From: Ceratobasidium sp. AG-K
Lineage: Eukaryota; Basidiomycota; Agaricomycetes; Cantharellales; Ceratobasidiaceae
Reading direction: 5' to 3'
Assembly: GCA_037039685.1 (NCBI GenBank)
Contig: JAWNGF010000007.1
Location: 2,604,001-2,668,000 of the forward strand
Length of the DNA: 64,000 nucleotides
The notes below the pieces were generated by a model, which saw only the letters and a list, made by a program, of their open reading frames with translations, did not search any database and was not told the DNA's origin. The position numbers and the translations under genes were made by a program. Of the stretch, positions 27,219-64,000 are shown piece by piece. Position 1 is the first letter of the stretch. Each line of letters starts with the position of its first letter.

Positions 27219-27485
27219 TGTTGAATATACAGTCTTATACGTAGATATATGCGCATCACGTGATTGTGTTCACATGGACGCATGCTTTGCGGAAATTTTA
27301 CCCTCAGTTCTCTACTCTTAGTAGCATGAGCTGAGGTATGATTTAGTTTTATATTTTCATTTTTTCCTATTGCTTATATTACCTGTAGTTACATGGATTC
27401 CCAGGTATATACATGCACAGTTCTCTACTCTTAGTAGGACGAGCTGAGTTACATTGATTCTCAGCCCGACACTGCGCATATCCCA
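27219..27485 (+). repeat. 3' LTR of the Ty1/copia element
   Basis: 267 bp, colinear with the 5' LTR with only scattered substitutions, mostly transitions. Confidence 0.93.
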
Positions 27486-40502: not shown

Positions 40503-41747
40503 GGCGGAAGACGGCTAGCGAGGGTGATCAGCTTGCTTGCAACGTCACACAGACCTCGTTCACTCACCGTGACACCGGCCAGGGGTAGACGCGTATTCGG
40601 CTTGTTGGCACTTGTGGCTGTTTACCACTAATTGATTCATGGCTTCCTTCCGTGATCGACATTGGCGTTCTGCCCCTCTGACGGACCGCCCCAAGTTTCT
40701 CTCCGAAGTTGATCATCGATCGTTTCAGATAGCCAGTCGACGTCAGGTGGGAGTTACCCTTTTGGACGGCATCGGAGACAGGGGGCCTCAGAGAATCCCC
40801 CGATCTCGGATGTTGGCACATTCTGGGAGTGGCACACGATGGTCCGAACGGAGCCAAGCGATCGGTGCACCCTGCTTGGTTGATTAGTTGATTGAACACT
40901 TGTGGCACATTCGTGAGGCTTGTTCACATCTGAATAGACTGAGCTGCCAGCAGAGGCGCTCGGCCAGGAGCGTTTTGGTGCTTCAACGTTGCCTGTTTTG
41001 TTGCCCTGGAAACACGCGACCACAGCACCAGCTGTTGCAAATACCCACCCTGATCACATGGCTCTGTCTGCTTCGCCTGGGACATGGTATAATTCTGACG
41101 CATACTCTAAGATGCGACTTACAAGAGCCACACAGGAAGGTTTTTACACCTAATCGAGGTCAGCACCTCTTGTCCATGAGAGTTGGCAACAACCAGGATG
41201 GGCGTTCGGTTGTTGACACAATGACCTCGGTCACCCTAACGCCAGCCAAGTCTCGTGATCATGATTTTTGCAAGTTTGCACCAATTTGAATAACACTTCT
41301 CTCCGTGATCGGCACTACCATCGGACAGTGGTAACTCTCCAAAATACTTCGAGGTGCAATCATCAACCAAATTGTGCGACTAATCAGCATCAGGTTAGGC
41401 GAGGATGATGTAACATTCTCTGGGAAGACAATAGTAGACAGTGGATAAGAATTAGATTCCTCTGTCGGACCTGAGCTTTGAGTGGGCGCGCACATGAATT
41501 GGAACTGTCTCAATAGACCCACGCGACTGGTGTATCTAGCCGGTTTAGCTCGGAGTATACACATCACAATGTTTGCCTTGTCTTTCCTCCGACGGACGGC
41601 CTTTCAGTGACGTACCAGGGGCGATTGTAAAACCAGGAAGAAGGCGCGGGCGGACCAACAACTAGGCCATTCCCCTAGATCTGCTCATCGGGGAAACCTC
41701 TTTTTGCTTTTACCTTGCAAGCTCGTGCCTCAGAATTGAAAACAACC
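40503..41747. other. Divergent intergenic region
   Basis: Lies between the start codons of the unknown gene (-) and the Sir2 gene (+). It contains several overlapping short frames on both strands, none with recognisable features. Confidence 0.4.
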
Positions 41748-44246: not shown

Positions 44247-46274
44247 TGCGTTTCTGGAGGAAGCCACACCCGTCAACGGGTATTTCTGTGCTATGCAGGG
44301 AGTGTGTAGGATGGACGACTTGAGAGCTATGATGTATATTAGAGGCTTCTATATTACAATAGGGATTAACAACCAGCTCACATAAAACTGGGCCGGATCC
44401 CGTTAACACAATAAGCAAGGAATACCAAGGCAAGAGTCATGCAATTGGTGCGATTGTCTTGACAAGCGTCAAGGTAAGTGTCACATAGCGGCTCCAATCC
44501 TGCTTTGAGATGGAGGTAAGTGCTAGAACGTTGACGTACTCTTCGCAGACAAGGCGTCACCAGCGTGTATCTTTGATTGTGAAAACTTACATCTGGGAAG
44601 AGGTGTGAAGCATTACTGTGGCCAACGAGATATATGGAAACGGATAAGTAGCCAAGTGCGAGGATAAGTGAACGTAACAAAGTAACCAACTCTGAATAGT
44701 CGACGTCCTTCGCGCGCGCGAGAGCACAAAACGACACATACAAAAGAGTATTCAATTGAGCATGGCCTGACTAACAGGAATGGTAGGCTGTGCTTCGTGC
44801 CATGATCTGGTGGGTGAAACACACATTTACCGGAAATGCTGCTAGTTCACGTACCTTGCAATGCAATTTGAGCAAGGCGCAGTGCACGGTAACGGCCGCT
44901 TCATTCAATACAATAGTGGCAAATATTTATTACGGAAATCAAGTGTACAAACGGTAGTCAATTAATCTAAGTTGACGACGATTGGGGCTACAGGGTAGAC
45001 ACGTCTCGACGAGACCCAATTTTGCGGTTCGAGTTGTAGGACGCATGGTTTTCCGGTCCAGCTTGGGGTCCACTCCGCAACGATTGGGACGGCGCTCGCA
45101 GCATATCAGAAGGTGGAGACCAAAGTTATCCAGGGAACACGTTTCAGTCACACCAGTGGGTAACACAACGCGTGAAAGGCAGTGCCTGAGCCTTGAAGGG
45201 AGATCCATGCCGATGGCCACAATTCTCAACAGGATGACCACGAACCCAGCCGAATCCACCCGTGGTCGGGCATAGCGGACAGGCAGAGCCTACGGGGCTG
45301 GGTATGCGGGATTGCATTCATCATGGGCCCTGAGTTGCTAAGAAAGAGAGACATGGGGAGTCCTAGCCAGATCCACGTCCAGCCAGGTCCACCCGTGATC
45401 AGGTATAGCGGACAGGCAGTGCCTGCAGAGGCTGGACGGGATGTGCGATCGGTAGGGCCATTGACCAAGGGAGAGCCACCTCGAGCTACACTCGACCAAG
45501 CCCACCGGTGAGGGCATAATGGACAGGCAGCGCCTACAGCGGCCGAGTGAGCCAGATATCAGGCACAGTGATTGATGTTCGTTCCGCCAGATCGCAATGG
45601 GCCCACTTAGCTTGGTCCACCCGGAGTCGGGTATAACGGACAGGCAATGCCTACAGCAGCTAAGTGAGCCCAAACATTTGAGAGGATCACCGTAGTCTAT
45701 GGCCAGACGGCCCAAATAGTTGAACACAGGCAGCGCCTAATCGATCGAGTGGGGAACGGACGCGAGGATGAGGCCGAGTGGGTTGTGGTTGTTGTTGGAA
45801 TCAAGACGCCCAGCATCACGTGATGTTTTTAATCTCCCGGGGCACGTGCACAGGGTTGGGACATGACAGCAGACACCACGTGATGCCTCTTCCCTCCTGC
45901 GTTTTGATGTACCATTTCAATAACGCCCCAGCGGGCAGGGCTTGAGTACCTCACTGGTTTCAAGTCCAATACCTATAATTTACTCCTGCTCTCGTTTGTT
46001 GGGGCAAATTGCTATGCTTCCAAGCAGGGCGACCAGAATGAGCCTAGCAGGCGCCTGGCCCCAGCGGATCAGTAGTTGGTTGATCGTTCGATTACTGTAA
46101 AAATGCGTGTATTCGGAACAGCTTCTGGCATCAAATCGTATGCTCACGTGACCATGCACCCTGAGCCCTAGTGTATTTGTGCTGATGGGAAGTGTGGTTG
46201 GGACAACCGGATACAAATACGTTGCCAACTCCAAGAGTAACAACCACCCAAACAAATTCACTCCCCTGTGAATC
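44247..46274. other. Intergenic region with a minisatellite
   Basis: No gene supported. It carries the ~115-bp repeat at 45.25-45.74 kb and CACGTG sites at about 45.81, 45.88 and 46.14 kb. Confidence 0.4.
45250..45740 (+). repeat. Degenerate ~115-bp tandem repeat
   Basis: Four to five units, each with CCACCCGTGRTCRGGYATA-like text followed by GCGGACAGGCAGYGCCTACAG. Starts at about 45258, 45388, 45501 and 45618, so spacing varies from 113 to 130 bp. A last half unit ends near 45740. Confidence 0.75.
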
Positions 46275-46660
46275 ATGCCAAAATACAATACAGGAAACAA
46301 ATCCACCTCACGAAAATCTACTGGAGGTAAAGCCCGATTGATGATACGTATGCTCACCCCGTGCTGTGCTATCAGAATCACATTGACGGTATTCAAGTTC
46401 CAGACGTTGTTGACTGGGAAAATGAGTTCCAGCGCCTCGGTATGTCTCTTGTGACAGTCTAGTGTGTGATGTAAAGCTTATCTAGGTCGCCCCTCAGACC
46501 AATGCCACTCCAACGCGGAGAGAACTTCTCAGGATGAGAGGCAAGTTGACCTGTGCGGTGCGTCCCATTGGTTAGTTGGACATGTTAGCTAGCACTCCTA
46601 CTTAGCCGGCTATACCTCTTCCAGAGTCCTGGCTGGTCACCGAGAGTGCACACCATAGAT
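46275..46660 (+). CDS. Histone H3 tail mimic, copy 1
   Basis: Exon 1 (46275-46347) starts MPKYNTGNKSTS and continues RKSTGGKAR, matching residues 8-17 of the histone H3 tail around K9, S10 and K14, then LMI. The donor C|GTATGC leaves phase 1. Exon 2 (46398-46439) gives LPDVVDWENEFQRL, and at least one more exon starts near 46496. The right-edge gene has the same RKSTGGKA core, the same (K/R)xMI end, the same phase-1 split after Ile and an exon 2 beginning LP followed by acidic residues, which argues that both are real genes. The rest is too short and acidic for a histone fold. The 3' end is not resolved; it is too short to be found by length-based ORF calling. Confidence 0.62.
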
Positions 46661-47125
46661 AAGCTTTGCACGATATACATTAGTTGGTCCGGAATGTGTA
46701 TCAAATTCTTTCACACCGTGTAACGCTACATAATATTCCACGGTTGTATGCTCTAACTCAGTCATGTGCGATCAGCGACCATGCAGTATGTCTGGCTGCG
46801 GGGACATCTGTTCACAGGAATGTAACGGTCTTTCTACAAAGGTAAAAGATGTCAGTACAATAATTGGTAGGAGTTCAACAAGTGGGTACCAAAGGCACAG
46901 CAAGGGGGCACAACAACCGCGCCATTTGGCCAACCATTGGATGAGGTGATCAAACGGCTAAGAGCCAGAAGATCCCCACGCGCCCGGGTACAGGTTCGTG
47001 ACATCGGGAGCACCTTACATGCGGTGATACCTTGTTGGTACAAGTATGCTCAGTCAAACTGGTTTGTGAGCGCGTCAATGTATACATAGCAATCGTAGGG
47101 GTACATGTATTTATATATTGGGCGG

Positions 47126-48813
47126 CTACGGCTTGGCTGCGAGTGTCTCCAGGGCCTTTTCCGCTTTTCGCCCGGATCTTGTCCACACATGACTGAGATC
47201 CACAGGTTTCCGTGGGCCCTCAGACGTCGGAGGCTGAACCGAGTCGACGCATAGCACAGTTAGTAGTACACTTCGCTGGATTAGACCTTGATGTGCTTAC
47301 AATTACTCTCATGCAAACGTTGGAAGATTCATTGAACAAAAAGGACTGTGTAGACGCGTCCCATTCCTCCTCCGTAAACTCGGCATCATGAATGGTCGCA
47401 TACCGGCGTTGGGCGGGGTGGATGCCTACTTGTAACTGGACGTTACAGCAGGAGGACCGATATAAAAAAACCACTTCGGAGCGATTCTCTCTCTCGGCCT
47501 GATAGATCCAGTTCCCGCTGTCATCGCAGCCACATATGGTATCCACCATCGGGAGCAGCACACCGAAAGGGCAACTTGCTTTGGGTGAATAGCAAATATT
47601 CTTGACGCTAAATTCGACCCCGGTTGTAGACCGCTGCATGATCATGAGTCCAGTGTGCGTCCGGACCTCCGATGATGTTCCCCAGATGCGCATAAGTGAG
47701 GGCTCCAGCGCCGCGCCAAAGTAGTAGAGGTTAACAAACAGTTCGGGAAGAATCGTGACGTACTCGCAAACCAGCAAGGAACAAGTGTTTGGCATCACAA
47801 GTGAGGTGAACGCAGTGCTGCGAGGATAGGATCAACAAATTTGCCATCTCTCGAATCGACTTACCCCCGCAGATAATTCTCCACGCTTGCTATAGATCCT
47901 TTAACGCGCAGATTAAATCCGCAGGCTATCCCAAACACGCGAGCCGTTGTGGCGTTACGCGCAATACCGCCAAGGTTGTGCAAACAGGACTCCAGAAATT
48001 GCTTCTCGCTTACTCGACCATCTTTTTGATTGCCATGGAGGGATGTATGCCACCAACCTCCCTGGGGATCGCCTTCCGTTAGAAAAAGGACGACGAGGTG
48101 ATAAGGGAACCCTTCTGGGAGCCTAAAGAATGAATTGTCAGTGTGTAACAAAAGGTAAGAGATGGCACTTACTGCTCGAAGAGAGCTTTGGCGTCTGCCG
48201 GCTCGATTCGATGGTGAAGCAATCGAATTTGCCAAGCGACGTTCACATAGAATACTTGCAGAGCAGACATCAGCTGATCAGCCAGAGTTCTTGCTGCGGT
48301 GGAGTGCGAGTGCGAGTGCAGGTGATATATCACAATCGCGACCGAGGATCTCGATGCTGTTCTCATCGTGGTGCGGGCCCCTCGGTTGATGAAGTACTTA
48401 GCGCCGATTTAGTAAAGCAAAACCAGTACTGGAATACAGGACGTACACCGATCGAGCGCGGTCGATGTTTGGAGACGCAATCTGGGCAAGGGAATGTGAT
48501 ATCCGCGCCAACTGCCATGCTGGCTGGAATGCTAACGCATGCTTCGGGCTCATGGGTCGGGTTAGACCCTGTTTGGCCAATGATGTCGTAGCAGCACGCC
48601 TTGGTGCACATGCAGCACTCTATGATATTTCCACCATCTTCGCATATGTAACAGTACTACCTCAACGACTCAGCCAGTCATCACGAAGCTACTCACTGTA
48701 ACGTACCTGATCTTTGCGGCTCTCTTCGGTAATAGCCTCTGAGAAGGCTTAGAACGTAGACCCCGGAAGTTCAAGGATTAATACGTACCGAGCTGCGTTG
48801 TGGGCTCTGACAT
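47126..48813 (-). CDS. PHD-like finger plus caspase-like protein (type II gene, copy 1)
   Basis: Exons (right to left): 48813-48789, 48738-48707, 48656-48447, 48396-48173, 48122-47865, 47817-47301, 47233-47126 (1374 nt, 457 residues). Exons 3, 5 and 7 have exactly the same lengths as in the paralogue at 57.4 kb (210, 258, 108 nt), and exons 1+2 also sum to 57 nt. The N-terminal Cys cluster CYICEDGGNIIECCMC with later FPCPDC resembles a PHD/treble-clef zinc finger. Residues 90-250 hold the caspase-like core: strand SVAIVIYHL, helix ARTLADQLMSALQVFY, strand HLVVLFLTEG, strand FGIACGFN. The Cys is kept, but Glu replaces the His of a caspase-type dyad. A C-terminal domain follows (VNLYYFGAALEPSL, GNWIYQAERENRSE), then a tail VDLSHVWTRSGRKA. 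Probably a non-catalytic partner; the function is inferred only from fold-like patterns. Confidence 0.8.
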
Positions 48814-49255
48814 GACGCGTGGAGAAGGTCGACTGCGCTGGCAAGGCACGTCGGACCAAACAGCCTGACGCGAGACAAACACAAAGGGTTTTCAGCACGT
48901 GACTGATCGATCAGCCTATCCGGAAGATGTAATCCGAGAAAATAATGCCTTGGGAGGTATTCGACAGTTATCGTCATAGCTAGGCCTCGGTAATTCTTAG
49001 GCCTCTGTGCATCAGCGCCACAACTATGAAGACTCTGGAGGATCGATGCGTGTATCAGTCTGCGCATGTATCTAGTAGTAGGCTGTAGGCGAGTGCACAC
49101 AGGTCCTGGGTGAAACTGCGACTTTGTATTTTTACGGGATGGATTTCATAAGTGTATTCGAATACGCCAATCGCGGAATCATCATTGGCGGTTCAGTAAT
49201 CCAAGGTCCCGAGCCAAATCTTCAACTACAATTTGTTGTGTATGAAATAAGCCAA
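48814..49255. other. Upstream region of the type II gene, copy 1
   Basis: Contains a GCACGTGACT site at about 48896, 80 bp upstream of the start codon, like those in the divergent promoters of copy 2. No gene. Confidence 0.4.
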
Positions 49256-51280
49256 TCACCGGCGTGCGCGAAACTGATTGTATCGCTTAGAGCTTCGATT
49301 ATCCAAGTCGAGCTCTGTGCTTCCAACAGCTTCAGCAGAGTAACGCCTGGCAGGCGAACCAACTCCAGAACCGGGAGGAACAGTTGAGGCCCGAACACCT
49401 CGCACAGGGCGCAAAGCTGATATGTCTGCCATCAGGACATCAACCGAGTCTGAGGCACGCATTTTGTGACCATTGCCAGGAGAGGCCGGGGTCGGCGTAG
49501 AAAGCAGCTGCGACAGAGGACAATGGTACCGTTGGCTCTGCTGTATGAACCAGTTGTGTAGGTCATAACCCAGTGACCGTCAGACGTACGGGACTGTATC
49601 ACAAAGGACCTACCGAGAGAGAGCCCAAGGAATTGCTCAGTGGGCTGTGAACCCGAGATCGATTGCACAACCGCTGGTTCAATGTCTGGGCGTTATGAGA
49701 CGTAAATCATTTGTGCAGTTTGGAATTGAGTGGTGGTATACCTGCACTGTGACCCGAACTTGTCTGCGCCTGCATCGGCTGTGCCAGCGTGCTCGGTGCT
49801 GAGGAAAGCTCGATCTTGTTGCTGGGAAGCGGAGCTGGATCTTCGGTAATCTGGCAGTACACCCATAAGCTTCTCAAATAGAAAGCTCGAAAGCATGAAT
49901 TGTACCTTGCGAGTGGATGCCGTATGTGGCGTTGGCGCCCCTTCAACCACATCTCTCTCTCCTTTCTCGCCCAAAGCTTTGTTTTGAGCATGACCGGCAG
50001 ACGGGGATGGTAGGCGAGAAGGCATGGCGCTGGCTTCCTGCGTAGCTGGCCTAGGCTTCTCGCCTCGCGCCTCCTTCTGTATTCTCAACTTAGACGCCTG
50101 TCGCTTCGAACTGGACCCGTTCTTGGAGTTTGAATCGGCTAATCGCCCATCCGTCCGACTGCTGGCACGGTCAGCCTCCTCAGCAGAGAGCTTGGCAAGG
50201 TGTTTGCCCTTCCCTTTCGAAGGGTTGCGTAGTCCAGAGCTCGAAGCGCTTGGTTTTGTGGTTGGCGGAGGGCTGGTTTCCTTGGATTTCGATGTACCAG
50301 GTTCCTCTGGCTCCGAAGAGGAGGATATTACGGTTGCACCAAGAGATGGGGAAGAAGGGGGCACCTCGTAATGAGCCTTCTTGGGCTGCTGAATACTTGG
50401 TCCATCGGATACGCTGACGTCTGATGGCCGCCTACGTTTCTGCCTGGGACTGTGACTGGTGCGATCACTGCTCTTGCCTGTGTCCATCGGAATGGTTTCC
50501 TTGCTTTTGCTCGGTCCGTTCTTTCGAGCCTCAATCATTCCTCGAGTAGGTTTCGCCTCCTTTGCTCGTATCCCTGTCTTAGGCTTCTGACCATTTGATA
50601 GCTTCTGAACACGTTTCCATTGCTTGTCACCGGCCTTAGGCCACCAGGCCGGTCGCTGCTTCAGGTCGGTGCGCTGGAAGTACGCAGAGCCTTCTTCCAA
50701 CTCGCGTGCGTTTGTCCACGAATCCACGACTAGTTTCCATTCAAGTGGGTCATACTCGTCGGCGGGCTCCAGCAAAGCGTAGGCTATTTTATGTTTGGTT
50801 TCTAGCCATAGAATTGGTTCGCTCCTGTTGGTGACCGGTTATTTGGAAGCCCGCCGACGGAAGATTGGGTGGTGCTTACTTGGCGCGCCAATGTACGCTA
50901 TATTCCTTGGACATACCCTCAATGTTTTCGAGCTTCACCACTTCCAAGTGTCTTCCGGGAGTTTCCTCCTCTTCCCAGTAACCGGACCAGATAAGATATT
51001 TGTAATCACCGGTCAAAGCGGCCATATATCCGTAGGCCTCCACCCCGGTCCACCACTGTTCAGATTTGGTAGCCTCGTACGTTGGGAACACAAACTTTCC
51101 GTTTTTTATAAACAAGAAGCCGTTCAACGCTCGTAGCTGCACTTTGGTTTTGGATTTTAGTACTTGCGTTAAGTTTGATACATGCCACGTACAGGTTCCA
51201 GCTTTTGGCCGACTTTTTGGTTCCGTAAGCAAACGATATTTTTCTGTTCGCGCTGGGTTGGGGGCGTAAATTGACGCCAT
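49256..51280 (-). CDS. Trp-rich protein with DLDNRSSK tail (type III gene, copy 1)
   Basis: Exon 1 51280-51193 (MASIYAPNPARTEK), exon 2 51141-50880, exon 3 50824-49907, then smaller exons to a stop at 49256; the last joins are approximate. The conserved N-terminal 150 residues read FLFIKNGKFVFPT, WWTGVEAYGYMAALTGDYKY, HLEVVKLENIEGM, ILWLETKHKIAYALLEP and RPAWWPKAG, each with a match in the gene at 61.6 kb. A long K/S/P/E-rich disordered middle with several basic NLS-like patches ends in LDLDNRSSKRY, also matched in the paralogue. Intron 1 splits the same place in both genes. Not recognised as a known domain; the small Trp/Tyr-rich fold could bind a peptide or nucleic acid, but that is a guess. 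Confidence 0.7.
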
Positions 51281-51694
51281 GGGTTCTGCCAGAGTGGTAT
51301 GCATTTGGAGCGTGGCGTTGGGAGCGATGAGCACTTGGGCGTCGAAGTGGAATCAACAGGGTGCTGTTGAAGTAATGAATACCCCAACCCTAGCCACGTG
51401 GCAAGTCATGCATTTCTTCGCACGTGACTGCGCGTACTCTGGGAGGCACGCGATGAGACGATGGAAGTGCGACAAGCGAAAAAGCGAGTATAATATATGC
51501 CAGCTCACCCTACCCTACTGGGAAGCATTGGTTGCATCTCTCGCAAAGGTAAACATGAGCTAATATAAGTCAATAATGACAAAACCGCCTTGAGACTACA
51601 ACACTGTCAATAATCCAATAACCAGTTGTGCAAGACCAGACGCTGGCATGGAAGCCTGATTGTCGTTAGTTCCAGCAGAACCAGAGCCTAATGC
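51281..51694. other. Gap between type III gene and TET/JBP gene
   Basis: Holds GCCACGTGGC (about 51395) and GCACGTGACT (about 51422) within 150 bp of the type III start codon. Confidence 0.45.
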
Positions 51695-53565
51695 TTAAAC
51701 TTTGCGTCTTTTTCTCCCTTTGAAACCCTCCGTTTTTGGTTCGGGGAAGTTTGGTGCGCAGGCTTGCCCAGCCAAGCAACTTCCTCGCCGCGCATAGTCA
51801 TGCTCATCGAGCAGCTTCGCAAGTTGCGGGTTTTCCTTTGCTCTTCGATTTCCTAACTTTGTTCCCAGGTTCGAAAGCTCATCCTGCTGGTCCGCTTTGA
51901 TAGCTACGGTCCTCCGTTTTTCGGAAGCAGATAAATGCTCCAAACATTCTTCGCTAGTAGGACGTATCAAGCTTGAGTCAAGCCTCAGCGCGGCCCATGT
52001 CGATTGTCGGCAAAAGGAGATCAAAGTGATTCGTGATCCTCCCGACCACTCGTGCACTTTGTGGCGAAAGTCATAACCATCAAACGCGCAGAGACACCCT
52101 GGGGTCCATTCCAGTCTCAGATTAAGGTCCGGAAACTCCAGGTCTCCACCTTGTGTGAATGTGCCGAGAACGCCAATGATATCGAGACCACCTCTGATCC
52201 CGCGCGTATCTCGATGAATGGCCGTCGTTCGGTTCACCCCCACACCAAAGCACGGGAACGCGCTGGTCCAGCCATTGATAACCGCGGTCTGGGTCGCTCC
52301 CTTCACCGCTGACATGTGGGCTCTCAATTGGCGCATAGCGTTGCTGAGGTAAGGATGGATAATGTCGGTGAGGAAGGCAACCTTTTTATCGAAAAGACGC
52401 TTTGACTCTAGGAAATGGATCATCTCTCGCTGACAGTGGGGTGCTAGCGCATTGCGAAAGTGCAGTGACATCTCCATGGGCCTCAGCTGCAGAGGAAATG
52501 AGTCCGGTGCGACAGCTGATGGTGGATCGCTATCCACTCACGTATTGCATCCCTGTTTGACACCACCCAGGACTAAAGTAGTAAGCAAACGGAGCCAGAT
52601 TGGCAAGGTCCTCAAAATCTTTTCCCTTGTCGCGCTGTGGAACACTTCTGGGTTCCTTGGTAGGTCCTGGTTGGATATCCAGCCCAACCAAGCGAACCTC
52701 CCCTTCGGTTTCTACGTAAACCTCTGGTCGCAGTTGTCTACATATGAAGTTCGCTGTGTCTTCCAAAACACCAGAGGTCTCATCCAATGGTTCCTCTGCG
52801 TCGTCTTGCATATCCAACAGTCCTTTGGCTGCTGCAGCCGCACGAGCCGCTTGGCTTCGTGTCGAAACGCCCTGAGCGTTCAACGTGTGTGAGCGTGGAC
52901 AAACAACCTGATCCGCGGCCCGGCGGTCTCTGATCTGCGAGTCTGCAGGTGGCTGGTACACCTTGGCTAGGTCCTCGAGCCTTCCGAGCAGGTTTTTCTG
53001 TAGATTAAGGTCAACCTTTTGCATGGAGCGCAATAGCCCGGCATTCACACACCCTTAGGCCCGTTCCAAGGAAAGCAGGGAAGTACCATAGGATTACTAT
53101 GTCGTCCATATCAACGAGTACAGCAGATCGCCCTCCGACTTCGAGGCGTCTCGGCTCCTGAGCGAGGCCTTCGAAAGCACCACCACCGATGGGGATACCG
53201 TTCTTTTTTCTTTTTTCCACAAAGTCTGATACCCGGAACGGCAACTTTACTAGCACCACCAAGAGTATTGAATTAGTGGGAAGTCAGTGAATCGCAATTA
53301 AAAGTAGTCCCTTACTGGGATTTGCGAGCGCCTCTGCAGCATGGTGGAGTACCTGTCTGTACATATCATGCTCAGTTTTTCTAAGCGTCTCCCGCGCTCT
53401 CTTCTGCCTTTGCTTGTATGGCTTGCCGTCCGGGAGAGGAACATTACGTGTCGTTGGCTCTGAACCGTTGGAGTCGACGTTCAAGCCCACGAAAGTAGTT
53501 GGTGTGACTGTGGGGGGAGCTGAAGAAATGCGTCTCTTGTTGCGCGACTTCTTTGGTTTCCCCAT
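51695..53565 (-). CDS. TET/JBP-type 2-oxoglutarate/Fe(II) dioxygenase
   Basis: Exons (right to left): 53565-53316, 53249-53053, 52997-52542, 52486-51695 (1695 nt, 564 residues; the 55-nt GTGTGT...CAG second intron removes an apparent frameshift). Residues 1-80 are basic (MGKPKKSRNKRR). Residues 95-150 include GGRSAVLVDMDDIVILWYFP. Residues 370-460 carry the double-stranded beta-helix signature: AIHRD (His392, Asp394), GGDLEFPDLNLRL, GCLCAFDGYDFRHKVHEW (His443), then SRITLISF with the Arg that salt-bridges 2-oxoglutarate. This spacing fits the TET/JBP superfamily, which oxidises 5-methylcytosine or thymine in DNA and has large expansions in basidiomycetes. The tail (KGRKRRKV) resembles a nuclear signal. 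It lies between the two cassette copies. A more distant DSBH oxygenase is the main alternative. Confidence 0.75.
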
Positions 53566-53963
53566 GTTAGGACAACGAGGAATGGGGAGAAGGCGCAAAG
53601 TCGGGAGAGTTGCTATGACAAGCAAGTCCTGAAATATGTCAACATAGGGTTCACTGTTTGCTAATTGAGGGACCAGTTGACACCAAAAGCTTGACATATG
53701 TCAAAACCCCTGGACGTTGGGATGTCCCCGAGCGACAAATGCTGTCGAGACACACAACATTCTTTGAAGTTTTGGCGGGTCTGTTCCATACTTTGCTCTG
53801 CTGACAATCTAAACAGTGCCTTCGGCCATAGAGCATGGTTCTGTATGCATTCGTCCAGTTGCACCTGTCTAGGTTCAAAACTAATCAACATAATTTCGGG
53901 AATAAAATCATTTGCTATTGTACAAACTTGTATAAACTTGACAAAAAACTTGGGAGCACAAAC

Positions 53964-56900
53964 TCATTCCTCATCTGGATCGTAAAAATATGGCACAACG
54001 GCACCATAAACCCCATCAACCTTTATCAAAGTGCCCGCCAATGACTCGTATGGAAGAGGCCAGGCTTGTCGGCACGCCTGGCATTTCGCCTGTACGCTGA
54101 CATCGCGCAGTCTGGACCCAGGTTTAATCTTCCCGTGCTCTACTTTCCAAATCTTCCTGCCACGACGCTGGTCGCTGATGGGCTTGCCCTGCTCGTCAAG
54201 TTGAGGGCTGCACGGGCAAACGCTCAGGAGACTAGGTAACGGCCTCCCCAATGGTCGACTCTGGAACGGCGCATACAGCCATATCTCCGGGCGACGACCA
54301 GGAGCCAGGCACAGGAGATCAGAGTGGCTGCAACCAATGGTGTCTCGGAGCCAGTAGTTGAGGAGCGTCGCGCACGCCTGATCGGTTTGGTCGACTAGCG
54401 CTTTGCTCCATTTTGCCATCACGTTGACCATAAAGGCCGGGGAGAACTTTTTGTTCATGCATCCGACCAAGGTATCGAATGTATTACGGCTGCAGTAGGC
54501 AGTGCTCAGCTAGTATAGTCAAACGTATACGATGGATCAAAACTCACCTATCGATCCACTCGCGCAACTCGTTAACAAGACCTGGATGATGCAACGGGTG
54601 ACCGCAACAGAGCAGAAACCCCCTTTTCGTCTTCGCGCCCTCGAGCGTACCCTGAGCAATAGACAACGTAGCCTGGAAGAACTATAAGCCGGATTAGCTG
54701 CTGCTACCTCTTTAGCCGCGTAAAAGAGCTGTGCTTCTCACCTCCACAGGACGGTACGATTCTTTGTTCGTCAGCTGGTAGCCTTGTTCTCCGGTTAGTC
54801 CGTGAGTGATGTAGACGACCATCATCTCGTATGTGCCTTGCTCCCAGTCTCTGAATCAAACCGATCAATATCCGAGAAGTGGACCGGAACGGTACCGCAA
54901 ATGCGATAGTATACTCACAAGTCTGGAAAGAGGCTCGTCTTCTCCCGCAGGTGTTGCAATTTGACCGGCTCAACCATGCACTAAGTGTGTGTACATTGAA
55001 TCCAATAGTTTCGAAGACTGCATCAAACTGGAACCCACCTGCCATCCCATTTGTTTCCATATGCTCGCGACGAGCGCACAGAGATGCTTCGTTTGGGGCC
55101 AGAACTGCTCAACGTAATACACCAGCAAGGCAAGGCGAGGCCAGGGCTTAGTCGACGATTCAGGCGTCTCCCGCGCCACCGGTCGCACAAAGTGCTTAAT
55201 TACCAGTGAGCATGGACACTTGAAAATAAAGTGCTTGAGGACTCACTGGATATAGACCCCGTTTTTCAGCATGCCAACACTCGGGGCAGACAAAGTCCCG
55301 TTTCGCATCTTCAAGAGATGGCCGAAGAAGCTCGTGCGAAAACATATTAAAGACGATGCAAGCCTCATCAAACGTAAACGTGTCTTCTTCTTCCTCCTCC
55401 GTTACGGATCCCTCGAAGGAATTAGCTTCGCCTTCCCCGTGCTGCTCAGCGTTCCGTGTGCCTAGTACTGGCTTCGGCCGCGTGGTGTCTAAGCGATCGG
55501 TCGAAGGTTCCTCGTCGCTGTCTCCCGAATCTTCGTCCTCTGTGCGCCGATAACAGTAGCTTGCCGAACATTTGCCACATTGGACTAGATATTCGGTGAT
55601 GCCGCAGCAGCAGTGACTGCAAACTTGACCAAGGTACGGCGCTTCAAGGGGAACTGTATGTCGCGGCAATTGATTGTTGATCGTCTGACCAGGAGCTAAG
55701 CCGCACGACAGGACAACTACCATTGCTCACAGAACTTACCTCGAACCAAAAGTCCCCGTCATCCAAGTCATCCTCAACTTCGCCTCCGACAAAAAGCTAC
55801 AGACGTTCTTTGTTCAGCGAAAGAGTGTGCAAATTGTCAGTCTGGGATTAAATGACTTACCCGATCCATTTCCCGCATCACCAGTCCAAGGGCTTCTGAA
55901 ACGTCCGACTGGATCTGCACATCGATGTACTGATGCACATTTTGATGTTGTACGGCCTCAGGGCCAATGTAAGCGACCGCACCGTAATGTTCGTGGACGA
56001 CTTCGGCCAGGTCACTGATCAGCCCCGTCAATTCCTTCGACTTCGGGGGGGCGCCTAGTATCAAGAGGAGGTGCGATGTTCCCGCGACTTTTTGCAGCGC
56101 CTCCCCACCCTCTCCTGTTACCATAGAAGCCGCGAGCGAATGTTGAACCATCGGCCGAAGGAGTCGCATAGCATCGCTGCCAGTTCGACGAGCCTTTGAG
56201 GTTTTCGTATCTGCGGGTAGAGGCGCGCCCAGAAAGGGGGTGCGAAAGGGTGTGCATGATGGTTTCCGAGAGGATAAGGGACAGAAAATGGATGAGCGAG
56301 CCATAAATAACTGGAGAAGAGCTAACTCACAAATTTGCGTGCACCGGCGGCAGGCAACAAGGCCCTTCGAGAGCATTTCCGTGTCCAGCGCCCTGGTCTC
56401 CTCTTCCGATGTGGTCTGGCACTTCCTAGTGCAACAGCCAAGCGTTCCGTTATCTCCATATAGCATTGTAACTTTGTCCGAGAGACCTTCGGCCGACCGC
56501 GCTTCAATTCCGTCGAAGCTCGAAGTCATACAGGTCGTGAGCCGATCCTCCTGGAATATCCTGACCAAATAATCCAGGAAAACATTCCGTTCGAAGTGGC
56601 GGATGGCGATTCGACGTTGCGTCATCGCAGAGTTATACGCGGCTAGTTTGTTGGGGGACAGCTCCTCCGGTCGGACGTCTCGCGAGGTGCACTCCTTAAG
56701 GAGACTTTGTAGACTCTGCCGCCGCACTTCCCTGTCGTATCTTACATCGACCGACATGTCCAACGACTATTCAACGCGGTTATACAGTCAGCTTGTTAAC
56801 GGGCCTGAAAGCACTAAGCTGTTCGGAGCGGAGAGTTAACATACCTGATAACCAGTTCCGCTCAGTACTGAAGCGCCGCTCAGGATCATGATCCTCTTGG

Positions 56901-57027
56901 TACGAGCGATTGCCGTGATGAGGTCCGCAAAACGGGATGGGTATTTGTCCGCGCTGATGGGCGATAGATGCTCATTGGAGCGGGAAGCAGATGTGACGAT
57001 TACTTTAGCCGGTTTTGACTGCTCCAT
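53964..57027 (-). CDS. Degenerate Sir2, PHD-like finger and caspase-like domain (type I gene, copy 2)
   Basis: Ten exons (right to left): 57027-56845, 56766-56331, 56210-55861, 55796-55740, 55684-55247, 55194-55039, 54980-54919, 54850-54742, 54672-54548, 54489-53964 (2442 nt, 813 residues, phases consistent). Residues 40-320 follow a sirtuin layout, but GAGIS reads GASVL, TQNxD reads TSSFD (142-146), the catalytic His-Gly reads Tyr-Gly (164) and GTSL reads GAPP. NAD chemistry is therefore unlikely. Residues 364-485 form a PHD-like Cys cluster (CSHCCC...CGKC...YC...CPEC) split by an acidic insert. Residues 495-640 are caspase-like: strand PRLALLVYYV, strand MMVVYITHG (His about 578), strand GFLLCCGH (Cys about 619), giving a His/Cys pair in the right order. 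The C-terminal domain has SRPLGRPLP, CPC and CQACRQAW. The divergent neighbour at 57401 shares its promoter region. Confidence 0.78.
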
Positions 57028-57400
57028 AGCTGTGTGCTAAATAAAAAGTCGACGCGAGGTGGACAAGAACAGGTTGTTGCGCGGTCACGTGACCCGTGCC
57101 CTCCGATGTTCCTGGATCCTTCCTGCTCCGGATCCTGCAACGCCTCGATGTAGACACGTGTTTGGTACGAGACCTCTATTGACCGGGCCCTGAGAGTGCG
57201 CGGCTGTCGAATTGACTGCACAAGGGTACTCCACACGCTCCGGACCTGGCTTGGACCATTGAATAAGGCAATGGAGGATGAAAGGCCACAAGGATCACGT
57301 GGCATCGCGTGACGCTTCTGTGCCCTTGGACTGACTCACGTCGTGTAAGTTGGTTGTCGAGCTATTCTCCCCCACGCTCCTCTCGTGATTCATAGTCGTG
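57028..57400. promoter_or_regulatory. 373-bp bidirectional promoter with CACGTG palindromes
   Basis: Separates the start codons of the type I (-) and type II (+) genes of copy 2. It contains the perfect 12-bp palindrome GGTCACGTGACC at 57083-57094 and ATCACGTGGC at about 57295. CACGTG is the core bound by bHLH and Cbf1-type factors. Confidence 0.6.
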
Positions 57401-59089
57401 ATGTCCGAACGTCCCGTGCAAGGTATGTACACATGCTTTTCATCACACTTGTATACTAAGGTCTTTCTGCTTAGACCCTACCGCGAACAGCTCAAATCAA
57501 AAGGATCAGGTATGTTTCCTTCTAGGCAATACGGACGCGCCACTGAGATCCCACGCTAGTATTGTTACATATGTGAGGACGGTGGGAACATTATAGAATG
57601 TTCGATGTGCTCCAATGTATGTTGTTACGACATCATTGGGGCAAAGGAATCGAATCCTCCCGGAGAGGTCGAGGCGTGCGTTACTATCCCGTCTAGTATG
57701 GTCACCAGCGTGGATGCTGTATTTCCCTGCCCAAGTTGCGTCGCTACGCATCGCCCACGTACAATCGGGGTAAGATATGATTTACCTGTTCTAACCGCGG
57801 TTCGCTAACACGAGCCTTAAGTATTTTATTAATCGTGGAGCGCGAACTACCATGCGAGTAGCGTCGCAGTCATCTGTCGCCCTGGTTATCTATCATCTGA
57901 AGTCGCATGTCGCCATGGCCAGAACGCTCGCTGACCAGCTGATGTCCGCGCTGCAAGTTTTTTACATCAATGTGGCCTGGCAGACTCGACTCTTGCATCA
58001 TGGTATTCAATCGCATGAAGCAGATGCTTTATTTGCCCAGTGAGTCTCGTATATTCTCTTCAATTCCGTAGTACTAAGCATGGGGGGTCCTCAGGCTTCC
58101 TCAGGGAATGCCTTACCACTTGGTGGTAATTTTTCTGACGGAAGGCGACCCACAAGGGGGTTGGTGGCACACATCGATACATGGGAATCAAAAGGACGGC
58201 CGAGTAGACGAAGACCAGTTCCTCGAATCTTGTTTACACAGCTTGGACCGAATCGCTCGCCAAGCGTTAACCGCGCGTGTTTTCGGCTTGGCATGCGGGT
58301 TTAATTTACGCGTCAAAGGATCCCTGGCGCGCATCGAGCGTTACCTTCAGCGGTATGTGAGTGAGCAGCTTCGGATGAACTTCATTGACGCTGGCCCCGC
58401 TCATTAGAACATCATTTATTTCCCTGATCATGCCAAACACGTGCTCGCTGTTAGTTTGCGACTACGCATCAATTATGCCGGAGCTTTTCGTCAACCTTTA
58501 CTACTTTGGTGCCGGATTGCAACCTTCGCTCATGCATGTGTGGGGGAAAGCTTCAGACGTGCGTACTCACACCGGACTGCTGATTATGGAGCGGTCGGCC
58601 CCGGGGTTCGATTTCGACGTCAAGACTATCGTGAGCTCGCCAGTGGATAGCCGCCCTCTCGGCGTTCAGCTTCCACTCACGTTTAGCGTTTGTGGGTGTC
58701 CCGAAGGCAGTGGGAACTGGGTTTACAGAAGGGAGATCCCGAATCGGCTCGAGGTGGTATTTGTGTATCATTCCTCTTGTTGCCAGGTTGAGCTACAAGT
58801 AGGAATTTACCCCGCCCAACGTCGCACGATCAAGGTGCACGATCTCACATTCACCGAGGAAAGGATGGACAGAACCACGCAAATGTTTCTGTTTACAGAA
58901 TCCCGGAACGTTTGTATGAAGATTTTTGTAAGTTAGGCTGCCTTAGCTCGTTTATTCACCTGACAATCTATCGTATCTCAGCCCCCCCGGCTCAAAAACG
59001 AAGCAAGACAGCTAGATTTAACCAACCATTGGACCGCCTCCGGGAGACGGGCAGCGAGAGGACAAGTTGGACAGCGCGTGGGGAGTTGA
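57401..59089 (+). CDS. PHD-like finger plus caspase-like protein (type II gene, copy 2)
   Basis: Exons: 57401-57422, 57475-57509, 57560-57769, 57822-58039, 58095-58352, 58408-58927, 58982-59089 (1371 nt, 456 residues, phases consistent). Exon 1 codes only MSERPVQ plus one base. Cys21, Cys24, Cys33, Cys36 and Cys40/41, with FPCPSC later, make a PHD-like finger starting CYICEDGGNIIEC. The caspase-like core holds ALVIYHL, ARTLADQLMSALQVFY, HLVVIFLTEG (Glu178 in place of His) and FGLACGFN (Cys229). The C-terminal domain has SRPLGVQLP and VCGCPEGSGNW, which aligns with SRPLGRPLP...VCPC in the adjacent type I protein, so types I and II share both the middle and C-terminal domains. The last exon, LDLTNHWTASGRRA, matches copy 1. 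Likely a catalytically dead partner of the divergent type I protein; this is inference. Confidence 0.82.
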
Positions 59090-60372
59090 CTAATTGATAG
59101 GATATGCGTCTGTTTGGAAGGATAGTTGTGTTCTATGAGAATTGGAGTAAAGATAGCGAGCTCCCCAATACAATGTGCTTTCCAATGCTTTGCTTCATCT
59201 CCACCGTTCCTGTGGTATCTCAGTTTGGCGTTCCAGTTCAACGAGCATAGGTCGTACCCCTTGCCTCATTCATTCAATTTATATCCCTCAACCCTGCAGC
59301 ATCCACTCCGTGAGCCAAGGAGCCACGTCGCGCGTGAACGAGAGGACATGTACGCCAGGGCAGGCCGAGCGCGGCCACACGCGTGTTGTATCACACTCTG
59401 CTTTGTGTTCTATGTGCTTCGAGACAAACATGACAACCTACTGAGCCCACGGCCCTACGAACAAGGGTGAAAGGTGTGACGCCACCTATATGCTCGCAAT
59501 ATACAATCCTATCCTGGCCTGTTCATATGAGGGAGGATGCAAAACAGAGCCATGCGGCGAAACCTTAATTCAATGAAAGCAAGCGGGGCTCAATCGCGTC
59601 ATGCACAGCTTGTTCCCAACAACGCACAACAGCTTCGCTAAAGGTAACCCCTTGCGACGACGGGCGAGACTCGCAAATCGATGCAGCCCTTCATTCTCAC
59701 CAGCCTGCTCTCAGCGACCCTTCCGAACGTTGTGCACTATCTCGAGGGAGCCGAGCTCCCGAACGATCTCCCGAAATCGCGAAGGTCGCTCAGTTGAACC
59801 GATACAGGGTCGAGCAATGTGAGATTTTGAGGTCTTTGACGAATGGACTGCAATTGTTTTTTTGGAGCCTGCTTTGCGGGATGCGGTTACTAAGATTATA
59901 TCGGTTCCACCCATTCCGGCGGATTGCGATACATTTCCAAAGGACTGTTTCATTAGCCAGGCGTTACCACAGGAGCCAGCGCGGTCAAAAAGGCTATACC
60001 ACAAATCTGCGCGCACAATCGCTCAATCGTAAGCCAGTTGATTAAAGTACTTCGACATAATTACGCCCAGTAAGATGCGCTTTCGCATTGAATCCTAACT
60101 AAGGAAGAAGCCCGCCATTAAGTCAACGACATGTGGGATACGTGTATAAGGAGTTGCACTGAGGTATAACATAGGGGGATCGTTCTATTATCTACAAAGT
60201 ACACTCTATCATGCTTAGTTGGCTCTATATGTATCGTCCCTCCTCTTCTATTTTCAAATCTTCCTCCATATAGAAGTTGTACACAAGGTGCGGCCTCGAT
60301 TGAACTTAATTTACTAGACTTTTTTTTTTACAAAAAACAACACGGCATCGATTATGTACATGCACGCCATCC
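59090..60372. other. Intergenic region
   Basis: No gene with support. A 101-codon open frame at 60016-59711 (-) has no recognisable features. A T-tract and poly-A-like words near 60300-60350 probably belong to the 3' end of the next gene. Confidence 0.4.
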
Positions 60373-61461
60373 CTAACCACTCCTCTTGAGCACCCTCTCG
60401 CCGTGGTCGGTTCCCTCCATTTTTCGCTTTGCTGGCCCACTCCGCCGGACCACCGCCCCCCCCCGACCACCCTCCACATCCGGATCGATACTTTGCGGCT
60501 TACGCACATCGGAACCGATGTTTTCCGGCTCGCGCACATCCAGCTCGACATCTTTCGGCTGGCGTGTCACCTTCAACCCTGCGTTGTGTGCAACCTTCCA
60601 TTCTTCTAGCTGACCCAAGTGATGCATGGGGTGGCCTGGGTATCGTTTGTCCCCCTTGGGACCGAGCCGGCGCCAGATCACACCGGAGGAGCATGGCTGC
60701 ATCGAGAGCTGCTCGGTAAGCTGCCGGAGCTCGACCTCGGCGGAGACCACAGCAGCTGGCTCCCCAGGGCCCAGGTCACCCGGCCATTGCCCGCTGCTTT
60801 GAAGCGGCCACCAATGTGGACGGGTTCCTCGCCTCGGCCACTCATCGCAAGGATCGACCTTGAAAAAGTCGAGCACGTTCTCCCACTCGTTGACAAAAGT
60901 GGAGTGGGGGCAGGTTAGGGCGTACTCTGCGATGGGTGTGATCAGCCACAGACATGGTGTACTACCGTCCGTTGGCACACAGTGTCAGTACTTCGCAACG
61001 TCCAATCCACCGGCGATTGACACTCACCTTCCACGAAATCGTGGGTCAGCGCGGAGCTCAATCACTGTTACGTTTGTGATTTCGACCCAGAACCAGTCGA
61101 ACTGGTCGTGTCGGTACCAAAGGCACTGCGAGTGGAGGCCCTCTTGCCCATGCAAGGTGGAAACGGCGCCTATGAAGGAAACACCTCCGAACTCCTGGTT
61201 CTGAAGCCACTGGTAGGGAATCGACCCGGGGACTCCGTCTACTAAAACGTGGAACATGCCTAAGACACGAGCGCGACCTAAAAGCAAAATACACAAGACC
61301 ACACAAGGCACTTTCAGGAAACAGTGATCCGTGGAGAGTCTCATGGACTTACGTTTCGCGGAGAGATGTCCTAGTCTCCTCTCCGTTTCGAGAAGCTCCC
61401 CTTCGCACGCAGGGTTGCCTCGCTTGTTTAATTCTCTCCACTCAGCTGGGTGGTCGTTCAT
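60373..61461 (-). CDS. Unknown Trp-rich protein, three exons, related to type III
   Basis: Exons (right to left): 61461-61353, 61277-61028, 60961-60373 (948 nt, 315 residues). The core reads LGMFHVLVDGVPGSIPYQWL, FGGVSFIGAVSTLHGQEG, DQFDWFWVEITNVTVIELR and RPHWWPLQSSGQW. It aligns loosely with type III (GFFFVKDG..., WTGVEAYGYTATLTGD, WEVVRIKNLT, PDWWPKAG), suggesting a shared small domain. The C-terminal part has three imperfect decapeptides (VELDVREPEN, IGSDVRKPQS, IDPDVEGG) and a basic end (KRKMEG...KRSG). Its ATG is 143 bp from that of the type III gene, in the opposite direction. No counterpart was found in cassette copy 1. Function unknown. Confidence 0.68.
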
Positions 61462-61604
61462 GTCGGTGTTCGCGATTTGTGCCTGACGCGGTCACGTGGG
61501 ATGAGGGAAAGGCATCCTCACTCACGTGATTTCGGTTGCAAACCTTGAACACTACCACGGTTCCTTCGCTTCAAACCGACTTTACACACAACCTTTGATC
61601 GAAT
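61462..61604. promoter_or_regulatory. 143-bp bidirectional promoter with two CACGTG sites
   Basis: GTCACGTGGG (core 61493-61498) and CTCACGTGAT (core 61523-61528) lie 30 bp apart between divergent start codons. Confidence 0.6.
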
Positions 61605-63118
61605 ATGGTGGCCCTCAAAGTTGACCCCCGTATCCAGAACCTTTTCGACGACAACCCGATTTATCCCGACTCGATCACTTTGGATCCGGAGGATGGGGAG
61701 CAACCGAAGAGAGGTAGATGTAAGTACGGCTCGGGTATTACTCAATCGCTGGTGTATATTGAAAAAATTTAGCTCTACTACGCGCACTGGATGGGTTTTT
61801 CTTCGTCAAGGACGGTCACTTCGTGTACCCGACGGCCGACAAAGCGGATGACTGGTGGACGGGAGTCGAGGCTTATGGATACACGGCAACACTGACCGGC
61901 GATTTTAAGTATTTTATTTGGGCCGGCCAATGGGACTACGATTACGAGGGAAAACACTGGGAAGTGGTGAGGATCAAGAACCTCACCGGCCTCGAGAAGA
62001 ACTTCGACCGCCATTGGCGCGGTGGGTGAGTAGCAATCCGTTCCCTTGTTCTCGAACGCGTGAACGACTAATCAATCCGTTCTCTACAGCCATGAAATGA
62101 TACTGTGGCTCGAGACCAAAGACTCCAAGTCTTACGCGCTGCTGCAGCCCGACGAGGTCTACGACTCAGACGTGAAAGAGGCCGGGGACGAGCGCGGGAA
62201 TTGGAGGATAGTCACCAACTCATGGACGAGTGCGAGCGGGTGCTATCCAGGTGACCCTGCCTTCGTGAAAGTCGAACACGGTGATGAGCAACCGGATTGG
62301 TGGCCCAAGGCGGGCAAAAAGGCGTGGAATTTCCATGTCAGGGAAGGCAAGAGGGTGCAGAAACGCCGTGCCGATTCTCCCAAGATCACTTTGGGGCGCT
62401 CGCGGGCACTGGCGGCTATGAAAACGCAGGAAGAGCACGGTGCAAAAATCAAGGACGCAGAACGAAAAAGGCAAAAGCGTAAGGAGAATCAGTTCCCTGC
62501 CGGGAGGAAGACAGGCGCGAATAAGCGTAAGCGGGAGTCGGAGGCTGGCGACTATGGCCGGCCCACACTCAGGAAGCGCAAGGCTGTCAACTATGCCGAG
62601 GTTCCCTCGTCCCCACCCCCCAAAGGTAGCTCCTCAGATAGCTCAGATAGCACGGGCGGGAGCGATGGCGAGGATGATAGCGGCGATTCATCCACTATCG
62701 GACAAGAGGGCCAGGAAAGCCCGCAAGGTACGTGATGCGTTGTCTCAAACAGATCCTATCATTGATGGAAGGTCATGCGGGCTACTGAGTAGCCTCCACC
62801 GCGATTCCACACGGTCCTACCCTTATGTCGGACGCGCCCGGGAATACCTCGAAATCTCCGGTCAGCGCTGAGAGCACACCGGTCGCGTCCCCCGAGGTTG
62901 CTGCATTGGCCCGCGCCTCTACCCCACTAGGAGCGCCAGGCTTCGCTGCTCCCGCCCTCGCCGCGAGTGACACCGTCCCCACGCCAGGCGGGTCTGTTCG
63001 CGACGCAGCGCCTCCCGTCACCTCTAAGAGCACGCAGGTCGAGCCCTCCTCGGGCGCGCAAGAAGCGGACCTCGACAACCGGTCCTCCAAGGCTTACTCA
63101 GGTATCTCGTCCGGCTAG
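61605..63118 (+). CDS. Trp-rich protein with DLDNRSSK tail (type III gene, copy 2)
   Basis: Exons: 61605-61719, 61773-62025, 62090-62727, 62793-63118 (1332 nt, 443 residues, phases consistent). It starts MVALKVDPRIQNLFDDN. Residues 39-170 form the conserved part: LDGFFFVKDGHFVYPT, WWTGVEAYGYTATLTGDFKY, WEVVRIKNLTGLEKNFDRHW, MILWLETKDSKSYALLQP and PDWWPKAG. A K/R-rich then S/D/E-rich stretch follows, and the C-terminal exon (A/P/S-rich) ends in ADLDNRSSKAY. The paralogue at 49.3-51.3 kb shares intron positions and the tail motif, which is the strongest evidence that this otherwise unremarkable disordered tail is functional. Charged runs suggest a nuclear protein. Confidence 0.75.
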
Positions 63119-63485
63119 AATCCCACCGCGCTCCGAAGTACTATTCCTTGACGGTGATCGGGACTGTGTCGTATCCCGTCGCGCTAATCTCGTTCCGTTG
63201 TTTGTTTGTATATTCTGTACGTTATAATAACAAATTTATATGTCCTACGATTAGAAGGCCCCCGCCGCCATGCTTTCTCGTGATTATCGTGATAGTTTTG
63301 GTATAAGCTGTTTCAACTATCCATTACCCGCCACTTGCCAGACGCGGTAACGTTGAAACTCTCGAATTTCGAATTTTTCTCCCCATTATGGTATTTATCT
63401 CATCGTTAACATTCTAAACGGTACACTATCACGCTTTGCACTGCGCAACCAATGATATTCTGCTCGAACCCCAGCAGGGGGATGC
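63119..63485. other. AT-rich gap
   Basis: No gene seen; consistent with the 3' end of the type III gene and the unresolved 3' part of the next minus-strand gene. Confidence 0.4.
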
Positions 63486-63922
63486 TTAAATTATAATCGT
63501 ACACATCCAACAGACTGCCACACGACCAGCCGCAATCCCGAGTATTTCCTTACTCACGTTCCGTAGTCGCTGGTATCGGCTGCCAAACCTCCTTCGCGCA
63601 GAATCGATAATATGAGCGATGTGTATACTCATGCGCACCGTACTCACCTCGCGTGCAGGGGTATCAGCCTCGTCACCGCCAGAAGGGACTGTCACCGGCT
63701 TGAAGGTTCCTGCATTCAAAAATTAGCGCTAGATTCGTGAGTCGCGCATAGACGGGTGAGAGACTCGCCGCTAGTCTGAGTGTCGTCGTCGTGATTGATG
63801 GGTGGTGGAACTAGATCGGACTCAGTCGAGCGCGCGGTATATTTGGGAACGGGTAACTCACGAATCATTTTCTTGGCTTTACCACCTGTGCTCTTGCGAT
63901 TAGTCGCCTTGGTTCTTGCCAT
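63486..63922 (-). CDS. Histone H3 tail mimic, copy 2
   Basis: Exon 1 (63922-63862) encodes MARTKATNRKSTGGKAKKMI. After the initiator Met, 13 of the first 15 residues equal the histone H3 tail, keeping K4, R8, K9, S10, T11 and K14; differences are A for Q5 and N for A7. The donor C|GTGAGT leaves phase 1. After a 51-nt intron, exon 2 from 63810 reads LPPPINHDDDTQ, then probably a further exon TFKPVTVPSGGDEADTPARE and a short one near 63.57 kb. Similarity to H3 stops after about 16 residues, so there is no histone fold. Copy 1 at 46.3 kb shares the core and the intron phase. Start and exon 1 are firm; the rest is approximate and may continue left of 63486. It likely offers, or competes for, H3-tail readers or modifiers. 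Confidence 0.68.
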
Positions 63923-64000
63923 GATTGAGGGATGAGAGGTAGTCGTGAGAGGGACGGTGTTTCGTTTCCGTTGGCTAGAACAACGAGATGGAACACAGTC

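Follow-up and report, generated by a model that had tools for sequence, protein, structure and literature searches.

We identified a family of three genes that encode the N-terminal tail of histone H3 on a separate first exon, with no histone fold behind it, inside a duplicated fungal block of at least 47 kb. Our preferred but tentative reading, which we hold with somewhat less than even confidence, is that these tail genes are cargo of a recently dispersed, telomere-associated block and most likely encode soluble histone mimics, or decoys, for writers or readers of the H3 tail. The window analyzed is a stretch of 64,000 nucleotides (C7:2604001-2668000) from a 53.6-Mb genome in 17 contigs, labelled C1, C3, C4, C7 and so on. 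Positions without a contig label are those of the window, extended past its end where they exceed 64000.

The H3-tail exons and their predicted genes

The minus-strand ORF from 63922 translates as MARTKATNRKSTGGKAKKMIRE..., and the exon at its start, that of paralogue A, matches H3 residues 1-15 at 13 of 15 positions (Q5 is replaced by A, and A7 by N). Paralogue B starts at C7:2669902, 1.9 kb past the window end; its tail peptide is MARTKQTSRKSTGGKAQRMI, with 14 of the 15 residues matching. Paralogue C, on the plus strand from 46275, has the tail only in part. In the 96 kb of C7 examined, A scored 61, B 70 and C 49 against H3 1-15 (ungapped BLOSUM62); the highest score at any other real site was 37. 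The best scores in five mononucleotide shuffles of the same 96 kb were 30-33, and a chance origin of the tail match is excluded by this comparison. A tblastn search with H3, run locally on these 96 kb, aligned tail residues 1-18 (B), 1-16 (A) and 5-16 (C); the other seven rows had E values of 1.3 or worse, with no histone fold after A, B or C. When full H3 was searched against the whole genome, the only part matched in the block, among the matches listed, was residues 1-19 at the B sites (L020/L021, E 0.186), and the real H3 genes on C1 matched this query far more than the block sites did. The preliminary description of this DNA had reported an H3 N-terminal tail without a histone fold at 63862..63922, and both the ORF match and the tail-only H3 alignments bear this out. 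That description covered neither paralogue C within the window nor B just beyond it, nor the recent duplication of the region.

In all three genes, a phase-1 splice donor directly follows the tail, one base past the codon for I19 (codon 20 in A). With splicing assigned by eye, the predicted proteins have about 73 (A), 84 or 86 (B) and 71 (C) amino acids; alternative splice choices in A, whose second donor is weak, give 51 or 113. A 1-nt indel between the C7 and C4 copies, at 63848, sits within the predicted intron 1 of A. Across exon 1 and the GTGAGT donor, A and B have the same base at 55 of 67 nt, as against 17 of 60 immediately upstream and 24 of 60 immediately downstream. Their alignment is limited to the stretch from the ATG to the donor, and the predicted C-terminal exons are not conserved between them. 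The likeness drops on both sides, so what is conserved is the tail exon together with its donor. Paralogue C has no DNA alignment to A and one of only 19 nt to B; we count it as kin by its peptide, its MI end and the position of its donor. The predicted products of the tail genes form a family of about 71-86 aa, each with an H3-tail N-terminus followed by an unrelated short remainder.

The first intron of the intact-start real H3 genes in this genome falls after about residue 33, as opposed to residue 19-20 in the tail genes, so that the tail exon is not an H3 exon in the usual frame. The intron position, the absent fold and the existence of three paralogues rule out an ordinary H3 pseudogene. 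Exon 1 had been presented initially as something other than the 5' piece of such a pseudogene, and that view is upheld by the three-member family, by the end of the conserved unit at the exon-1 donor and by the intron position.

Residues 8-15 of H3 (RKSTGGKA) are identical in A, B and C. The codons of these residues differ at five nucleotides between A and B, seven between A and C and four between B and C, all of them synonymous, and the peptide therefore looks constrained. Under random substitution it stayed unchanged with a frequency of 3e-4 (A/B), 0 of 200,000 draws (A/C) and 3e-3 (B/C), in a uniform substitution model and over three pairs that are not independent. The differences most likely post-date a common origin, given the shared non-H3 MI end and intron position; had the tails been captured separately from different H3 genes, the argument for constraint would be weaker. 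With only synonymous changes over 8-15, the predicted products would be non-histone proteins with a constrained tail-like motif, as expected of histone mimics. The least probable of the readings that we weighed is a passive remnant, in which a captured 5' piece of H3 or an untranslated exon persists without function. The unconserved C-terminal parts and the differing remainders of A and B would suit it. The synonymous-only changes over 8-15 argue against it, as do the donor that immediately follows each of the three tails, at a position unlike that of real H3, and the lack of other H3 sequence nearby (tblastn, 96 kb).

Outside the core, residue 7 differs from the A of H3 in all three paralogues (N in A, S in B and C), residue 16 is K, Q and R in A, B and C as opposed to P in H3, and residues 16-17 are KK, QR and RL in place of PR. 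HP1 chromodomains bury A7 of H3, and Gcn5 recognizes a motif that includes P16. These changes would fit a peptide that is open to K9 enzymes yet poorly read by HP1 or Gcn5. Paralogue C is without A1-R2-T3 (MPKYNTGNK), and the residues common to all three are 8-15, with K4 and T6 at the corresponding distance.

SNAG-domain proteins such as GFI1 use an H3-like N-terminus with LSD1, as pseudosubstrates. The N-terminal ARTK of A and B is exactly that of H3, and docking of this kind is an alternative to titration of H3K9 enzymes: the free A-R-T-K would enter the pocket of an LSD1-type demethylase or an H3K4 reader and recruit a complex. We think this unlikely, though worth serious consideration, as C has lost A1-R2-T3 yet keeps 8-15 intact, which places the common constraint around K9-K14 and not at the N-terminus.

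Table 1. Coordinates of the predicted features in the window
Feature	Position	Strand	Remarks
Duplicated block, left boundary to window end	23706..64000		Goes on to C7:2674924 (70924 extended), 6.9 kb past the window
Left terminus of block (GGTTATTAAGAGGG...), including 15-bp minisatellite	23706..24066		Joined to different flanks
340-bp tandem repeats split by copia insertion (24675-27486)	24068..29850		RVT_2, E 4.2e-28
SNF2-like ATPase gene pieces	30654..34775	-	SNF2-rel_dom (34176-34775), E 1.9e-4, 21 bits against a curated cut-off of 24.9
Sir2 deacetylase-like gene	41679..43223	+	Pfam SIR2, E 8.6e-19 on 42001-42453; best PDB sirtuins 3e-9
Paralogue C exon 1, MPKYNTGNKSTSRKSTGGKARLMI	46275..46347	+	Phase-1 donor GTATGC next; same peptide on C4 and C9
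Paralogue C exon 2 (predicted)	46404..46439	+	By eye
Paralogue C exon 3 (predicted; stop at end; total 71 aa)	46486..46592	+	By eye
TET/JBP dioxygenase-like gene, HRD motif	51698..53054	-	Tet_JBP, E 6.9e-7 (51698-52537), below curated cut-off
Cysteine-rich exon (earlier "PHD-like") and upstream exon	55199..56766	-	Cysteine-rich exon unmatched in Pfam and PDB; upstream exon unmatched in Pfam
Paralogue A exon 4 (predicted; ends ...ATTERE stop; total 73 aa)	63550..63591	-	By eye, low confidence
Paralogue A exon 3 (predicted; weak GTCTAT donor before)	63648..63709	-	By eye, low confidence
Paralogue A exon 2 (predicted), peptide LPPPINHDDDTQTSGESLTR	63754..63810	-	Splice model by eye
Paralogue A exon 1, H3-tail module MARTKATNRKSTGGKAKKMI	63862..63922	-	First 61 nt of ORF, then phase-1 donor GTGAGT

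The duplicated block, its copies and its ends

The C7 copy of the block, with A, B and C all inside it, aligns in inverted orientation with C4:4198764-4151345, over 46,868 columns at 99.72% identity, followed by an indel of ~185 bp and a further 386 columns at 98.7%. In the cargo the two copies differ by 16 SNPs in 40.7 kb of the long alignment; their flanks differ and their orientation is opposite, all of which points to recent spread. A 3.8-kb probe from the SNF2 part (31000-34800) found five nearly identical copies, on C7, C9, C1, C4 and C8; on C3 it has a single short match that is older. Paralogue C is present in three of the five copies (C7, C4 and C9) and A and B in two (C7 and C4), while the C1 and C8 copies are without tail genes in their assembled extent. 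The C1 copy departs after the equivalent of 36657, and runs of N occur at about 38062 in the C8 copy and soon after 50608 in the C9 copy; C7 has two N just past 70924. A genome search with the tail of B, at E up to 10, gave ten places among the matches listed, seven being A, B or C in block copies and three being real H3. The copies are not limited to contig ends, those on C4 and C9 lying far inside.

Other features of the block were observed in passing. In the copia insertion (24675-27486), 41 of 170 CpG sites show transitions between C7 and C4, compared with 8 of 2499 in the cargo (29851-70542). Transversions are also higher in the copia (8 in 2.8 kb, compared with 4 in 40.7 kb), so that gene conversion with other copies, and not methylation alone, may explain the CpG excess. 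Two paralogous pairs in opposite orientation lie in the block, one (47223-48277 and 58108-58933) with about 66% DNA identity and the other (49696-51352 and 61605-63118) recognized by eye. In the left flank of the C7 copy, the ORF 23345-23989 has an end similar, by eye, to that of the block protein at 37627-38769, and may be part of an older related block.

The left end falls at the same place, within about 5 nt, in the six copies viewed. TTAGG-like repeats are present at five of these six left junctions (C9, C1 at 7.64 Mb, C8, C7 and C4), as one unit only on C7 and on C1 (7.64 Mb), and are absent from the junction at C1:56.9 kb. The telomere repeat itself appears to be the 5-bp TTAGG, as at the right end of C1 (L053, C1:9906184). 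Coprina-type sequence occurs at the left junction on C4, on C9 and, by eye, on C8; on C9 a broken RT (residues 701-1123) stops 12 bp before the block. On C4, to the right of the block, a terminal-repeat DNA transposon is followed by a Coprina-type unit and then by an interstitial (TTAGG)n array. This separate unit holds an RVT_1 ORF of 1123 aa, 4.1-7.5 kb past the shared block, which in Pfam matches RVT_1 only (E 7e-7, 0.1 bit under the cut-off) and has no PDB match. We take the RT unit to be of the Coprina (Penelope-like) family from its RT, telomere repeats and layout. The C4 RT was considered as a part of the block and dropped, since it lies within a separate unit that bears its own terminal repeats. 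The intact 1123-aa ORF (L028:3835-7203) has three identical copies, two on C1 and one on C4, one of them about 300 bp from a contig end; besides C4, copies of the Coprina-type RT occur on C1, C12, C3 and C9. Interstitial TTAGG arrays were seen at the 5' ends of Coprina-type units (L052, 8070 onward), one of them far inside C4 near 4143300.

A 98-bp terminal repeat at 70825-70924 was likewise rejected as the block end, as it belongs to a separate terminal-repeat DNA transposon. The full copy of this element (C3:3870594-3875042, L051) is 4.4 kb long, with terminal repeats of about 98 bp and a second repeat-rich gene; by eye, we read its transposase-like ORFs as Tc1/IS630-like. Terminal-repeat relatives of the C3 element are found on C5, C10 and C4, and the C4 copy of the block runs into such an element.

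Within the block, Pfam searches of 70 hand-picked ORFs (86 ORFs of at least 110 aa being listed) recognized only the inserted copia as an RT or transposase; split genes can hide a transposase. Rfam gave no hammerhead ribozyme match at E up to 1 in window positions 23600-30000, L052, L053 and L028. Of the features of a telomere-attaching Penelope-like element, the block has a telomeric-repeat terminus at varied sites, and neither an RT inside it nor a 3' hammerhead was recognized in these searches. Recombination between telomere-like repeats would explain the spread of the block just as well as Terminon-like attachment. The telomere-like repeats at the junctions, the nearby Coprina sequence and, besides the inserted copia, the lack of an RT or transposase family among the 70 ORFs would also suit a different origin, in which the block is a segmental duplication made by chromosome-end recombination and the tail genes are subtelomeric host genes with a pro-silencing or scaffold function, for example in nucleating HP1-type readers. 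This seems to us rather improbable, given that the left boundary is constant in all six copies, including the one without a telomere-like repeat, and that the replacement of A7 in every tail makes HP1 nucleation less likely.

Companion genes and a possible anti-silencing role

The tail gene was described at first as a neighbor of Sir2, PHD-like and TET/JBP genes. The Sir2 and TET/JBP assignments stand on both Pfam and PDB matches, and the PHD identity at 55.2 kb was dropped for lack of either. The GAG, NVD and catalytic-H motifs of the block Sir2 look intact; the neighboring pieces at 41679-42098 and 42438-43223 have no family of their own. The TET/JBP protein matches Coprinopsis CcTET (PDB) at E 2.7e-11, with the HRD motif and the distal H and R aligned, and the block in this respect resembles transposons that carry a TET/JBP dioxygenase, with a Pfam score below the curated cut-off. 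Tet_JBP occurs at six places in the genome, four of them outside the block, and at these four no H3-tail exon was found among the matches listed in the tail search (E up to 10). Assignment of the proteins at 60.4-61.5, 61.6-63.1 and 49.7-51.3 kb to DNMT1-RFD (RFTS) was abandoned, since the match of one exon (E 0.085) was not borne out by three spliced models, searched at E up to 1. No other ORF among the 70 scanned had a convincing Pfam family. The meaning of the co-located tail genes likely moves from a host regulatory cluster to the cargo of a mobile or subtelomeric element.

The presence of Sir2 in the same block, with its gene about 3 kb from that of paralogue C, raises the alternative that the tail is a dedicated substrate or partner of this Sir2, or of another block protein, in an internal regulatory circuit. 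The tie between Sir2 and the tail is one of co-location, and Sir2 enzymes have broad substrates; we judge such a circuit improbable.

For the preferred reading of the tail proteins as mimics or decoys, the relevant background is that H3K9 methylation is linked to the silencing of transposable elements and of repeats in subtelomeres and that the H3-like motifs of G9a/GLP are automethylated and HP1-bound, both as given in the portion of PMC9768651 that was available. Given the former association, a multi-copy subtelomeric block would gain from weaker H3K9 silencing. Short proteins with H3 8-15, two of which (A and B) also have the exact ARTK start, could act as competitive substrates or docking peptides. 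The core, which includes K9, S10 and K14, would tie up the host's H3-tail enzymes or readers, chiefly the H3K9 writers, and with these engaged, silencing of the repetitive subtelomeric block would weaken. The TET/JBP protein would act on DNA methylation alongside the tail mimics. The expression of the tail proteins, their nuclear location, a binding partner and the anti-silencing effect are inferred. A yet more tentative suggestion is that counterfeit H3 tails, an eraser of DNA methylation and a sirtuin together make up an anti-silencing toolkit of the block, which would be mimicry by a selfish element and not by a virus or a host regulator.

Several observations count against a decoy: paralogue C is without residues 1-3, the C-terminal parts of A and B are unlike each other, and two copies of the block (C1 and C8), as assembled, have no tail genes. 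The cargo may also be unmethylated by default. A genome search for a host H3K9 methyltransferase gave no match, and was uninformative in that control genomes also gave none.

A protein database search with B, of a kind that can hardly score a 20-residue match, found nothing at E 0.01; at E up to 10, it returned one 84-aa fragment (E 7.8) that is H3-like for about 28 residues and then departs. Among the papers listed in the literature searches, no title or opening of an abstract describes an H3-tail protein encoded by a transposable element. At the level of sequence, it is confirmed that a mobile or subtelomeric block carries H3-tail genes, an unusual feature whose novelty rests on limited searches. 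If the mimic reading is true, a selfish DNA element would be fighting heterochromatin by copying the substrate of its enzymes, with a DNA-demethylation enzyme beside it. The block would then offer a compact testable system for the contacts of subtelomere silencing, with three natural H3-tail variants that have different substitutions around K9, and the known cargo of giant fungal mobile DNA would grow wider.

Comparison with known systems

As far as the accessible text of PMC6431247 describes them, the Terminons, giant Penelope-like elements of rotifer telomeres, are like the block in that they join telomeric repeats at one end, carry accessory genes, occur also as truncated copies and have host genes caught between neighboring elements. 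The block differs from them in having no recognized RT of its own and no Rfam hammerhead, in that the Coprina-type RT on C4 lies past it, and in belonging to another kingdom.

The transposons of Kojima 2025 (PMC12730594, known to us in part) are, like the block, selfish elements associated with a TET/JBP dioxygenase, which is proposed there to help fungal DNA transposons escape methylation-based silencing. They are DNA transposons (Kyakuja, Zisupton, Plavaka and others), whereas no such transposase was recognized among the 70 ORFs of the block, which has a terminus of the telomere-repeat type and carries H3-tail genes. By a word search of the text at hand, PMC12730594 has no mention of sirtuin, Sir2, PHD or cargo; it uses "histone" four times, including for SET methyltransferase genes in oomycete transposons, and mentions no H3-tail protein.

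SNAG-domain proteins likewise have an N-terminal peptide that resembles the H3 tail. Here the match, known from sequence, is to H3 itself through K14, and C is without the first residues. Viral proteins reportedly act as histone mimics. With these and with the host enzymes G9a/GLP, so far as the available part of PMC9768651 covers them, the predicted tail proteins share a non-histone setting for an H3-tail-like motif around K9. They differ in that the motif forms a separate N-terminal exon, is nearly full over residues 1-15 in A and B, and belongs to a three-gene family in a fungal mobile or subtelomeric block.
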